Source: Glaciecola sp.
GTDB lineage: Bacteria > Pseudomonadota > Gammaproteobacteria > Enterobacterales > Alteromonadaceae
Reading direction: 5' to 3'
Length of the DNA: 64,000 nucleotides
Assembly (NCBI GenBank): GCA_018623155.1
Contig: JAAZVZ010000011.1
Location: 1 to 64,000, forward strand
The notes under the pieces were generated by a model that saw nothing but the letters and a program-made list of their open reading frames with translations, searched no databases and was not told where the DNA came from. How positions within the stretch are numbered: position 1 is the first letter of the stretch; each line of letters begins with the position of its first letter. Shown here one piece after another: positions 22,425 through 61,699 of this stretch. Both the position numbers and the translations under genes were made by a program.

Positions 22425-23600
22425 TTACTTTTGTAATAATTTTGCCATAGCATCCCCTAAACCGTTTAGAGTCAGTGGATACATTTTATCATCCAGAATT
22501 TCTCGAATGAGGTGTATCGAGTGATGATACTCCCAATATGTTTGCGGCTGAGGATTGAGCCACACCGAATTGGAAAAATGATTGAGCAACAGTCGTAACC
22601 AATATTCTCCTGTTTGCTCGTTCCAATGTTCCACACTGCCTCCTGGATACGTTATTTCATAAGGCCCCATGGTCGCATCACCCACAAAAATACATTTGTA
22701 GTCACGCCCGTAAGTGCGCAAAATTTCAAATATGGTCTGCACTTTATGACGGCGCGAATTATCTTCCCAAACCCCCTCATAAATGCAATTGTGAAAATAA
22801 TAATAACGTAGGTGTTTGAATTCAGCGTGCACTGCCGAGAATAACTCTTCAATTTGCTGAATATGCATATCCATTGAACCGCCCACATCAAAGAACATAA
22901 TGACTTTAACAGCATTGTGACGCTCTGGACGCATTTTTAAATCCAATAACCCTGCGTTTTTAGCTGTTGCCCCAATCGTATCATCAATATCCAGTTCTTC
23001 TGCTGCACCGGTTCGGGCAAAGCGACGGAGTTTCCGAAGGGCAACTTGCATATTACGAGAGGATAAACGCTCATCATTAGATAAGTTTTTAAATTCACGC
23101 TTATCCCATACTTTAACCGCAGAATAATTGCGATTACTGTCCTGCCCCATACGTATCCCTTCAGGATTAGCGCCATAGGCACCAAAGGGAGATGTCCCGC
23201 CCGTACCAATCCATTTATTTCCTCCTTGATGACGCTTTTGTTGCTCAGCAAGTCGTTCCTTTAGAGTCGTCATTAATTCATCGAGCCCACCAAGCTTCTC
23301 AATTTTGTTTCGCTCTTCTAGTGACAAACGTTTTTCAATCTCTTTCCGAAGCCAATCGGATGGAAGCTCATCTCTAAATAACTGAAGTTGGCTTACCCCT
23401 TCAAAATAATGCGCAAAGGCTCTATCAAACTTATCAAAATGCGCTTCGTCTTTTATCAAAATCACTCGTGAAATTCGATAAAACGTCTCCCAATCTGCGT
23501 ATACTAATTCCTTGTCCAGTGCATTAAGCAAATCCAGATGCTCTCGAAGAGAAACGGGTACTTGAAATCTTTTTAAGGTCAGAAAAAACTCGATGAGCAT
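22425..23600 (-). CDS. CoxE-like VWA-domain protein
   Basis: This 391-residue soluble protein has a C-terminal von Willebrand A domain. The metal-site motif appears as FFDVGGSMD near residue 240, a Gly replacing the usual Ser as is typical for this CoxE branch, and IFVGDATMGPYE lies near 305. The N-terminal half is charged and helical. It follows a MoxR ATPase by 14 bases. MoxR-VWA pairs act as chaperones for metal-enzyme or complex assembly. The substrate here is unknown; nothing in the neighbourhood identifies it. Confidence 0.85.
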   Translation of the reverse strand: MLIEFFLTLKRFQVPVSLREHLDLLNALDKELVYADWETFYRISRVILIKDEAHFDKFDRAFAHYFEGVSQLQLFRDELPSDWLRKEIEKRLSLEERNKIEKLGGLDELMTTLKERLAEQQKRHQGGNKWIGTGGTSPFGAYGANPEGIRMGQDSNRNYSAVKVWDKREFKNLSNDERLSSRNMQVALRKLRRFARTGAAEELDIDDTIGATAKNAGLLDLKMRPERHNAVKVIMFFDVGGSMDMHIQQIEELFSAVHAEFKHLRYYYFHNCIYEGVWEDNSRRHKVQTIFEILRTYGRDYKCIFVGDATMGPYEITYPGGSVEHWNEQTGEYWLRLLLNHFSNSVWLNPQPQTYWEYHHSIHLIREILDDKMYPLTLNGLGDAMAKLLQK

Positions 23601-23614
23601 ATGAAGGCGCTCTC

Positions 23615-24451
23615 TTAACGGCGTGCCATAAATAAGAGCTTTTCAAACAAGTGCATATCCTGCTCATTTTTTAATAACGCTCCATACAATGGTGGCATCG
23701 CATTAGCATTATCTTTGTTTTGTAAAACGTCTAAAGGAATATCTTCTGCAACCAAAAGCTTCAACCAATCAATCAACTCTGAGGTGGATGGTTTTTTCTT
23801 AATTCCTGGGACATCTCTTACCTCAAAAAATCGTTCCAATGCCAACTCGAGTAAACGAGGTTTAAGATTTGGAAAATGTACATCAACAATTTGCTTGAGT
23901 TCTTCGGCATTTGGAAATTGTATATAATGAAAGAAACAGCGGCGCAAAAAGGCATCTGGTAATTCTTTTTCGTTATTAGATGTAATAATCACAATCGGTC
24001 GATGCTCAGCTTTGACCCATTCTTGCGTTTCAGGCACATAAAATGACATTTTATCCAGCTCTAATAATAGGTCATTGGGAAATTCAATGTCCGCTTTATC
24101 GATTTCATCAATCAGTAAAATACAACGCTTAGCACTGGTAAATGCCTGCCATAAAGCGCCTTTTTTAATGTAATTAGCAATATCATGTACCTTATCGTCA
24201 CCAAGCTGTGAATCTCTCAAACGAGAAACCGCATCGTACTCATACAAGCCTTGTATGGCCTTAGTCGTGGATTTAATGTGCCATTGAAAAAGCTCTTTAT
24301 CCATCGCTTGTGCCAATTGTTCAGCGAGCATGGTTTTACCAGTACCTGGCTCGCCCTTGATTAATAAAGGTTTTTCCAAGGTCATGGCCGCATTAACGGC
24401 GAGTTGTAATTCATCGCTCGCAATATAGTCTTGGGTTCCTGTGAACTTCAT
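23615..24451 (-). CDS. MoxR-family AAA+ ATPase
   Basis: This 278-residue ATPase has Walker A GEPGTGKTMLAEQ near residue 37, Walker B CILLIDEIDKAD near 106 and the sensor segment IVIITSNNEKELPDAFLRRCFF near 150-170. MoxR proteins work with a VWA partner as an assembly chaperone, and the partner gene follows directly. The cognate client protein is not evident. The same two-gene cassette is common in Alteromonadales and other proteobacteria, so it is treated as housekeeping, not as a defence system. Confidence 0.88.
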   Translation of the reverse strand: MKFTGTQDYIASDELQLAVNAAMTLEKPLLIKGEPGTGKTMLAEQLAQAMDKELFQWHIKSTTKAIQGLYEYDAVSRLRDSQLGDDKVHDIANYIKKGALWQAFTSAKRCILLIDEIDKADIEFPNDLLLELDKMSFYVPETQEWVKAEHRPIVIITSNNEKELPDAFLRRCFFHYIQFPNAEELKQIVDVHFPNLKPRLLELALERFFEVRDVPGIKKKPSTSELIDWLKLLVAEDIPLDVLQNKDNANAMPPLYGALLKNEQDMHLFEKLLFMARR

Positions 24452-24540
24452 TGTTTACCTCGAAAGTGTAATTTTATTGTTAATGCATCTATCTTATAAC
24501 GAAAGAGTACTTTAAAAAAACAACGCCATGATAAATGATA

Positions 24541-24586
24541 TAGGTATAACTGAATAGTATACCTAAATAGCTAATAAGTATTTAGG
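24541..24586 (+). promoter_or_regulatory. Two overlapping LysR-type inverted repeats before cysK
   Basis: Repeat A has arms TAGGTATA (24541-24548) and TATACCTA (24558-24565). Repeat B has arms CCTAAATA (24562-24569) and TATTTAGG (24579-24586). Both have perfect 8-bp arms and a 9-base spacer, both contain the T-N11-A core of LysR-family sites, and their centres are 21 bp apart. CysB, a LysR regulator encoded at 59682-60656, is the known regulator of cysK in enterics, so these are candidate CysB sites. They could alternatively form mutually exclusive RNA hairpins. Confidence 0.55.
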
Positions 24587-24613
24587 CTGACACTCCCAAC
24601 AAAAGGAATCATT

Positions 24614-25579
24614 ATGCGCGTATTTGACGATAACGCTTTGGCCATTGGTAACACCCCACTTGTAAAATTAAACCGCGTAACTGGCGGAAACGTTTATGCA
24701 AAAATAGAGTCTCGTAACCCATCTTTTTCAGTCAAATGTCGTATTGGCGCAAATATGATTTGGGATGCCGAGAAGCGCGGAGTGTTAAGTGAAGGCAAGG
24801 AATTGGTTGAGCCAACATCTGGCAATACAGGCATTGCATTGGCATTTGTAGCAGCAGCAAAAGGTTATCCTCTTACTTTAACGATGCCTAGCTCTATGTC
24901 TTTAGAACGTCGTAAACTGCTAAAATCTTTAGGTGCTAAATTGGTTTTAACGGAGCCAGCTAAAGGCATGAAAGGTGCGGTTGCGACTGCTCAAGAAATT
25001 GTGGCAACGGATCCAGATAAATTTGTCTTATTACAGCAATTTGATAACCCTGCCAACCCTGAGATCCACGTTAAAACAACCGGCCCAGAGATTTGGAATG
25101 ACACTGATGGGACCATTGATACATTTGTTGCGGGTGTTGGTACAGGTGGTACTATCACTGGCGTTTCTCGCTACATCAAAGAAGTCCAAGGTAAAGCGAT
25201 TACGACGGTTGCAGTAGAACCAACAGATTCACCTGTCATTACTCAAGCAAAAGCGGGTGAAGAACTGACTCCTGGCCCACACAAAATCCAAGGAATTGGT
25301 GCTGGCTTTATCCCAGGTAATCTGGATTTGGATTTGATCGATGAAGTTGAGCAAGTTTCTAATGAAGAATGTATGGAGATGGCCAAGCGCTTAATGAAAG
25401 AAGAAGGTATCCTAGCCGGTATATCCTCTGGTGCTGCTGTGGTTGCGGCTAAGCGTTATGCTGAGCGCCCAGAAAATAAAGATAAGGTGGTGGTCGTTAT
25501 TTTAGCTTCAGGAACAGAACGTTATTTATCAAGCCCAATGTTTGCGGGTGAATTTAGCGATTTGGAAGAAGTTCAGTAA
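24614..25579 (+). CDS. cysK: Cysteine synthase A (O-acetylserine sulfhydrylase)
   Basis: This 321-residue PLP enzyme makes cysteine from O-acetylserine and sulfide. The PLP lysine lies in [11 protein letters not shown] near residue 42, the substrate loop is [11 protein letters not shown] near 71, and the phosphate-cup [14 protein letters not shown] is near 180. Length is standard. A good Shine-Dalgarno (AAAAGGA) precedes the ATG. It has its own control region with two inverted repeats and a strong terminator, so it is monocistronic. Confidence 0.96.
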
Positions 25580-25602
25580 TTCATTTTTTATAAATGAATG
25601 AT

Positions 25603-25634
25603 GGGGAGTCTATATGTATAGACTCCCCTTTTTT
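25603..25634 (+). terminator. Strong intrinsic terminator after cysK
   Basis: A perfect 12-bp stem (25603-25614 with 25617-25628), with only two bases between the arms so that the loop opens slightly, is followed by six T residues. It lies 24 bases after the cysK stop and before the converging enoyl-CoA hydratase-like gene. Confidence 0.92.
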
Positions 25635-59681: not shown

Positions 59682-60683
<1,002 letters not shown>

Positions 60684-60802: not shown

Positions 60803-61699
60803 TTAACAAAATGTAGTCGTTACACGTTGTTGCATAAACTGCCAAAAAGCATCTCCTAAAACCGATAAACCAACATGTTTCGATCTTACCATTCCCATCT
60901 GGCGAGAAATTTCACGTCTGGGTAAACTGACACAATGCAAACCCAAATCCAGCATATGTTGACGAGCCAAATCGGGTAAAATAGAAATTCCCAATCCAGC
61001 TTGAATCATGTGTCCAATGGTAGCAATCTGACTTGCTTGAGCGATTTGGTTCAACTCAATCCCTGCATGCTCAGCCGCTTTATCGACATAAATTCGTAAA
61101 CTTGCTTGATGATCCATGGCGATAAATGGTTCATGAGATAGATCTTTCAGAGATATATTTTCATGTACATGAAACCTGTGTTCAGGAGGTGTGACGACCA
61201 TGAAACCATCATTGAATAGGGGCAAAAATATGATATCCAAAATGGTTTCCGGTTCAAATGTGAACGCAATTTCGACTTTTTCAGTCAATACTGCGTTAAT
61301 TGCGTGCTCCACAACCATGTCCTGTATATGCAAATGAATTTTAGGATATAGCTTAAGAAACGCCTTGAGATGTTTAGCTAAACCACCTTGTGCAAAAGAT
61401 GGGATACAAGCAATATGTAACATGCCTTGTTCTTTGGCAAACACCTCTTTGACGTGCTGATTTAACCCGACATATTCCCGATAGTACTGCAGTGCTTTAG
61501 GATAAAACCACTGACCTTCTTTGGTTAAAGAGACTTGACGAGTGGTTCTTTCAAAAAGCTGGCCACCGAGCAGCGCCTCACATTTTTTTATCGTAGCCGA
61601 TAATGCAGGTTGAGATACAAAGAGTTTTTCCGAGGCTAGAGCAAAACTTTGACACTCTGCAAGGGTGATAAACGCTTGGAGTTGTTTGAATGAAAGCAT
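60803..61699 (-). CDS. LysR-family transcriptional regulator (candidate regulator of scoAB)
   Basis: This 298-residue LysR regulator has an N-terminal helix-turn-helix (LKQLQAFITLAECQSF-like start, VSQPALSATIKKCEALLG near 28-45) and a C-terminal effector-binding domain (~90-290). It diverges from scoAB across a 111-base gap, the usual arrangement of a LysR protein and its target; the gap contains TTAAC-N5-GTTAT (61713-61727), a weak inverted repeat that could be its site. Effector unknown; acetoacetate or acetoacetyl-CoA are guesses. Confidence 0.86.
   Translation of the reverse strand: MLSFKQLQAFITLAECQSFALASEKLFVSQPALSATIKKCEALLGGQLFERTTRQVSLTKEGQWFYPKALQYYREYVGLNQHVKEVFAKEQGMLHIACIPSFAQGGLAKHLKAFLKLYPKIHLHIQDMVVEHAINAVLTEKVEIAFTFEPETILDIIFLPLFNDGFMVVTPPEHRFHVHENISLKDLSHEPFIAMDHQASLRIYVDKAAEHAGIELNQIAQASQIATIGHMIQAGLGISILPDLARQHMLDLGLHCVSLPRREISRQMGMVRSKHVGLSVLGDAFWQFMQQRVTTTFC

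Follow-up and report, generated by a model that had tools for sequence, protein, structure and literature searches.

Overlapping inverted repeats before cysK in a Glaciecola genome: a possible lineage-specific leader hairpin beside a putative CysB-activated promoter

The region upstream of cysK in the 64,000-nucleotide stretch of Glaciecola sp. DNA analysed here (hereafter, the window) carries two overlapping inverted repeats with perfect arms, IR1 and IR2. Our results indicate that the repeats are real, whereas their assignment is doubtful; the most probable reading, which we hold tentatively, is a lineage-specific leader hairpin lying beside an ordinary CysB-activated promoter. The pair would then constitute the local form of a fast-evolving cysK leader hairpin, made here by IR2, and the alternatives to be weighed against it include an additional CysB operator, chance, the operator of another repressor and an RNA switch.

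Results

Gene context and statistics of the paired repeats

The cys genes of the window and the two repeats are the following:

24614..25579, plus strand: cysK, cysteine synthase A (TIGR01139, 456.2 bits, cut-off 350.95)
59682..60656, minus strand: cysB (NF009326, 604.8 bits, cut-off 436)
24541-24565, no strand assigned: IR1, TAGGTATA-ACTGAATAG-TATACCTA, perfect arms in an 8-N9-8 arrangement, centre at 24553, straddling the putative transcription start
24562-24586, no strand assigned: IR2, CCTAAATA-GCTAATAAG-TATTTAGG, perfect arms in an 8-N9-8 arrangement, centre at 24574, candidate for the leader hairpin

The presence of cysB in the same window, which a preliminary description of this DNA had pointed out, was confirmed by the NF009326 match, and its product aligned over its whole length with the solved CysB chain 1al3 (residues 1-324, 538 bits). 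The closest named CysK proteins are those of Alteromonas and its neighbours, with 88% identity at best. The intergenic region before cysK is divergent, and the MoxR-like gene on its other side starts at 24451; a VWA/CoxE-like gene (PF05762) and this AAA ATPase gene together occupy 22425-24451, in divergent orientation to cysK. A second LysR-family gene (60803-61699) adjoins cysB, and among the 25 NCBIfam matches shown none above cut-off was found for it. Directly 3' of cysK, at 25579-25628, there are two other inverted repeats with 8-bp arms (25579 and 25603), which are possibly the cysK terminator. No Rfam matches were obtained in the window at gathering scores.

The letters, overlap and spacing of IR1 and IR2 agreed with the earlier claim, that is, two perfect 8-N9-8 repeats with centres 21 bp apart and a common CCTA segment at 24562-24565; 27 bases separate the end of IR2 from the cysK ATG (24614). 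When the 162-bp intergenic region was shuffled 20,000 times by dinucleotides, a test chosen after the repeats had been seen, any 8-N9-8 repeat occurred in 0.58% of the shuffles, two distinct 8-N(3-15)-8 repeats in 0.06%, and a same-spacer pair in none (0/20,000). Across the whole window, four perfect 8-N9-8 repeats were observed against a mean of 1.6 per shuffled window, and IR1 plus IR2 constituted the sole same-spacer pair within 30 bp, with none in 60 shuffled windows; repeat pairs with any spacers were found at three places, compared with a mean of 0.18 pairs in the shuffles. From these intergenic and window counts, a single 8-N9-8 repeat is unremarkable, while the pair exceeds local chance. 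The T-N11-A dyad cores that had been taken as a mark of LysR-type sites are indeed present (ATAA-N7-GTAT in IR1 and ATAG-N7-GTAT in IR2), but their diagnostic weight did not hold: they say little, since the window contains about as many cores of this kind as its shuffles do (28 occurrences of the related core ATAC-N7-GTAT at up to one mismatch, vs 25.7 expected).

A conserved CysB-type block and the cysK promoter

Upstream of the repeats and within IR1, the following promoter elements were assigned:

24472..24514, plus strand: conserved CysB-type activation block before cysK, with a TATAAC-N7-TACTT core from 24495, aligned by eye and by matrix
24533..24539, plus strand: putative cysK -10 element, in the frame AAATGA/AATGAT and 20-21 nt past ACTT; a weak hexamer here
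24545..24546, plus strand: putative transcription start, placed from the -10 position and the enteric activation-site spacing

The block reads CTTATAACGAAAGAGTACTTT at 24493-24513. It was matched at 24482-24516 by R1, a sequence-only, 40-column model of 28 boxes, with E values of 1e-5 in the window and 2.1e-4 in the genome; furthermore, the cysK-upstream block was the best R1 match in all 10 genomes of the genus set (the window genome and G001-G009), with 4 of the 28 training boxes coming from this same genus. A weight matrix was derived from 85 sequences lying upstream of cysK in this family and its neighbours, a set with some duplicates, and matched 82 of the very regions from which it was built; these 85 are part of 174 family genomes with a match, and the enteric and other loci L050-L110 lie outside them and were compared by eye alone. 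Many relatives have a -10-like hexamer about 20 nt past ACTT, and so, as judged by eye, do the enteric loci L099 and L100, where it reads TATGCT; in the genus of the window genome it is poor.

At cysJIH, cysK and cysP, CysB activation sites have their centres 50-60 bp before the start, as given in the excerpt of PMC11329422, and the block at 24472-24514 lies at about -52 relative to the putative start. Because this spacing fits a start near 24545, and R1 selects the block in 10/10 genomes, the CysB activating site of cysK is likely this block, upstream of the repeats, as far as sequence comparison can tell. A start near 24545 would place IR1 across the start and IR2 within the transcribed leader; a start at about 24557 is possible if TATAAC (24545-24550) is the real -10. 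A sigma-70 scan returned a single site, at 24587-24615, a count within chance (1 vs a mean of 1.3 in shuffles), and this site was rejected as the cysK promoter, as transcription would start inside cysK.

IR1 and IR2 had been proposed as the site at which CysB activates cysK, a role that fits the upstream block instead. Their centres would lie at about +9 and +30, unlike the 50-60 bp upstream of the known sites, and R1 gave 3.0 bits at 24558-24571 and 2.3 and 1.7 bits at the IR1 edge, in other registers. Thus, given the fit of the upstream block, the weak R1 scores on the repeats and the narrow species range described below, an activating role of the repeats is unsupported. None of the papers searched combined cysK, CysB and Alteromonas.

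Across the family, a candidate CysB box before cysK was observed, with the consensus ATATGATATAGCnAAAAAGCACTTT and a near-fixed distance to the -10 (24472-24514 in the window, and L010, L016, L032, L040, L143 and L151); the block of the window, with this spacing, makes a well-defined candidate for the CysB box of cysK in the family. In several relatives the ATPase start seems, by eye, to adjoin the CysB block, and therefore the cysK and the divergent ATPase promoters may use one common block.

Neither the region upstream of cysJ (TIGR01931) nor that of cysB in the window genome contained a convincing match to the cysK box (the highest matrix scores, both strands considered, were 1.6 and 0.9, respectively, vs 20.9 for the main box) or paired repeats comparable to IR1 and IR2. 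The R1 matches listed for the genus comprise 57 rows, 10 of which are the cysK sites; weaker matches were read in seven loci, most of them inside or away from sulfur genes. A weak R1 match in G002 (L176:1501-1528, 14.2 bits, E 0.13) lies about 190 bases before trmJ, followed by cysE (TIGR01172), and may serve cysE in that genome, and locus L182 of the window genome has an R1 match with E 0.83 after genes that resemble cysI and cysH (named by eye). Given the L176 and L182 matches, we make no claim that cysK alone carries the box.

Distribution of the repeats

Both dyads were found in 3 of the 10 genus genomes, namely the window genome, G004 and G008. Of 193 loci compared, those of the window genome and its two nearest relatives alone had exact copies of the repeats. 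In G004 and G008 the arms of IR1 are kept, and a T to C change at 24579 alters one base of an IR2 arm and thereby breaks one IR2 pair. In the remaining seven genus members the arms of IR1 and IR2 are not kept, except for the IR1 left arm in G002. When the three closest species are compared, the arms vary at 1/28 positions vs 10/53 for the flanks (p 0.087), and the spacers at 3/18, giving p 0.105 when they are added to the flanks.

A search of the whole genome (56 contigs, 98.84% complete) yielded no second copy of either dyad at up to 2 mismatches; at up to 3 mismatches the counts were 11 and 15, own site included, and those of the reversed-pattern controls 22 and 17. Since no other copy exists in the genome within 2 mismatches, and the counts are not above the controls, an operator shared by a cys regulon is disfavoured. 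The preliminary description had looked to the same pattern before other cys genes, and had regarded its absence there and from the cysK regions of relatives as evidence against its proposal; with no second copy at up to 2 mismatches, none before cysJ or cysB, and exact copies in the three closest species only, most of that absence was found.

Folding of the cysK leader

According to the preferred reading, CysB would bind the block at 24472-24514 and activate the cysK promoter, transcription would begin near 24545, and IR2, at about +18 to +42, would fold in the RNA of the cell, with IR1 spanning the start as DNA. The probable role of the hairpin would be to protect the 5' part of the mRNA or to determine how it folds, by analogy with 5' stem-loops in other bacteria. 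IR2 alone has a predicted energy of -6.3 kcal/mol, and folds that start at 24545-24549 include it; a fold of 24541-24600 favours IR1 (0.97 vs 0.03), and a longer fold from 24541 forms IR2, not IR1. RNA folding leaves IR1 unexplained.

Of the 82 matrix-matched leaders, 66 remained once redundant and short ones had been removed, and folds were computed for 65; in eight loci (L022-L025, L027-L030) an offset of 3-6 bases in the marked start codon was taken into account. The first 50 nt were more stable than shuffles (p<=0.05) in 4 of 7 non-redundant genus leaders vs 7 of 58 from other genera, which amounts to 11/65 for all leaders, compared with 3/64 for control stretches upstream of the box and 1/36 for later leader stretches. 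The family-wide excess of hairpins is weak, and we do not claim a hairpin for the whole family. The leader of the window itself did not fold better than its shuffles (z -1.09, p 0.145), and that of G004 reached z -2.72.

A 12-pair stem at the same leader position was identified in G003, G006, G001 and G005, with 93.8% of cells paired, a share as high in 3/500 shuffles; G001 is without two of the 12 pairs and G005 without one. Its covariation, drawn from these four sequences, is modest: the score of 0.236 was as high in 13/500 shuffles, and two pairs are changed on both sides, which 63/500 shuffles also reach. When the partner strand was slid by 1-3 columns, 19-42% of cells were paired and no pair was changed on both sides. 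Furthermore, G002 has its own 8-bp hairpin at the leader position, and two of the ten genus members, G007 and G009, have short leaders and no hairpin. Because the hairpin of the window is unlike those of the sister species in sequence, their covariation has no direct bearing on it. If the leader hairpin is the correct reading, these leaders suggest that the cysK leaders of the genus retain a hairpin while its letters change. A CGACAGA-like motif was also seen by eye to recur in cysK leaders of the family (L010, L042, L129, L139, L143, L150 and L153).

Discussion

The chief rival to the leader hairpin is an extra CysB-like operator downstream of the activating block, which we consider somewhat unlikely. 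It would consist of two additional CysB-type (T-N11-A) boxes provided by the cores of the repeats, in direct repeat 21 bp apart and spanning the start together with the initial turns of the transcribed region; by binding them, a CysB tetramer would block cysK or modulate its expression, as at the CBS-B site of enteric cysB. The cores are as follows:

24545..24560, plus strand: CysB-box-like core TATAAC-N7-TAT, lying 50 bp past the main core and ranked 312 of 127,960 by the matrix
24567..24581, plus strand: second CysB-box-like core ATAGC-N7-TAT, 21 bp further, matrix rank 22 of 127,960

This rival stands foremost because the cores, ATAACTGAATAGTAT and ATAGCTAATAAGTAT, form CysB-box-like direct repeats, in the same register at 21 bp, at a genus-conserved element. 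Both fit ATARC-N7-YAY, as the main box does, a pattern shaped after they had been seen. The ranks above, among all window sites, were obtained with a 21-column matrix trained on 42 boxes outside the genus, and changed to 281 and 26 when a stricter selection of 37 boxes was used; an in-register 21-bp pair scoring as high arose in 1/5000 leader shuffles, but the score of the second core alone was matched in 116/5000. The +50 TATAAC is present in 9/10 genus members and the TAT in 10/10, with the intervening 7 bases variable, although TATAAC followed by TAT could be simply the -10 and the start, with the same conservation. The +50 sequence is more strongly CysB-like in G009 and G007 (6 and 44 window sites score higher), but middling in G002 and G003 (428 and 594) and poor in G001 and G005 (2787 and 21,653). 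The second core was observed in the three closest species only: the window genome has it in the form given above and G004 and G008 read ATAGC-N7-CAT, the T to C change at 24579 in these two matching variation between main boxes. A CysB site across the start of cysB, CBS-B, offers a precedent (excerpt of PMC11329422). Conversely, the arrangement was noticed after the fact, R1 makes no call of the cores in that register, leaders outside the genus have no clear excess of boxes (5/56 at p<0.05), and perfect symmetry is left unexplained by a CysB operator, since the CysB box does not include the TAGG/CCTA arms; the repeats, if a second CysB site, would be unusually symmetrical for sites of this regulator. 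It is improbable, in our estimation, that cysK of this clade has, next to its ordinary activating CysB site, a second, perfectly symmetrical tandem CysB operator across the transcription start, whose letters also make the leader hairpin. With such an operator, one regulator would both activate and throttle the final reaction of cysteine synthesis.

Chance in an AT-rich leader, in which the promoter would fix the IR1 left arm and drift would have produced the rest, appears unlikely to us: single 8-N9-8 repeats are to be expected at the frequency seen in shuffled windows (mean 1.6), exact copies were found in three close species only and the conservation of the arms is not significant (p 0.087), but a same-spacer pair was absent from the 20,000 local shuffles, and hairpins are predicted at the same place in sister species. 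Perfect dyads on one face of the helix and across a start are the classic layout of an operator. The dyads lie in this layout within a divergent intergenic region, and could serve some dimeric repressor of cysK or of the MoxR-like gene starting at 24451; however, with no second copy of the dyads in the genome at up to 2 mismatches, counts at up to 3 mismatches (11 and 15) not above those of the reversed patterns (22 and 17), and no conservation of the arms in the seven remaining genus members, we regard such an operator as very improbable. Least probable of all is an attenuation-like RNA switch between mutually exclusive IR1 and IR2 hairpins, which had been raised earlier as an alternative. 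The arms do overlap by CCTA, and a transcript from 24541 would favour IR1 in the 24541-24600 fold (0.97 vs 0.03); yet the longer fold from 24541 gives IR2 rather than IR1, and the likely ribosome site, AAAGGA at 24602-24607, is covered by neither repeat. A two-hairpin switch is disfavoured, since the left arm of IR1 appears to contain the start (about 24545) and a search of 24400-24640 for terminator-like sites (a hairpin with a T run) gave none.

The leader hairpin beside a CysB-activated promoter remains, tentatively, the preferred reading, and its parts may be compared with known systems. The block and -10 spacing of the window align by eye with the CysB-activated cysK promoter of enterics, whose CysB site is named CBS-K1. 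In the excerpt of PMC11329422, the activation site of enteric cysK lies 50-60 bp before the start, and so would the block of the window if the start is at about 24545, whereas paired palindromes at the start and leader are a feature of the window, outside the enteric cysK layout described in that excerpt. Like IR1 under the proposed start, CBS-B, through which CysB represses cysB, extends across the transcription start; it is described there as two divergent half-sites, whereas the cores of the window form a direct repeat and constitute a candidate site. Finally, 5' stem-loops that stabilise mRNA, such as those of ompA and papA (cited in PMC3997798), are hairpins close to the 5' end, as IR2 would be; IR2 starts 17 nt from the putative 5' end, vs 4 nt for the hairpin of G003, and would be a candidate stabiliser of the message.
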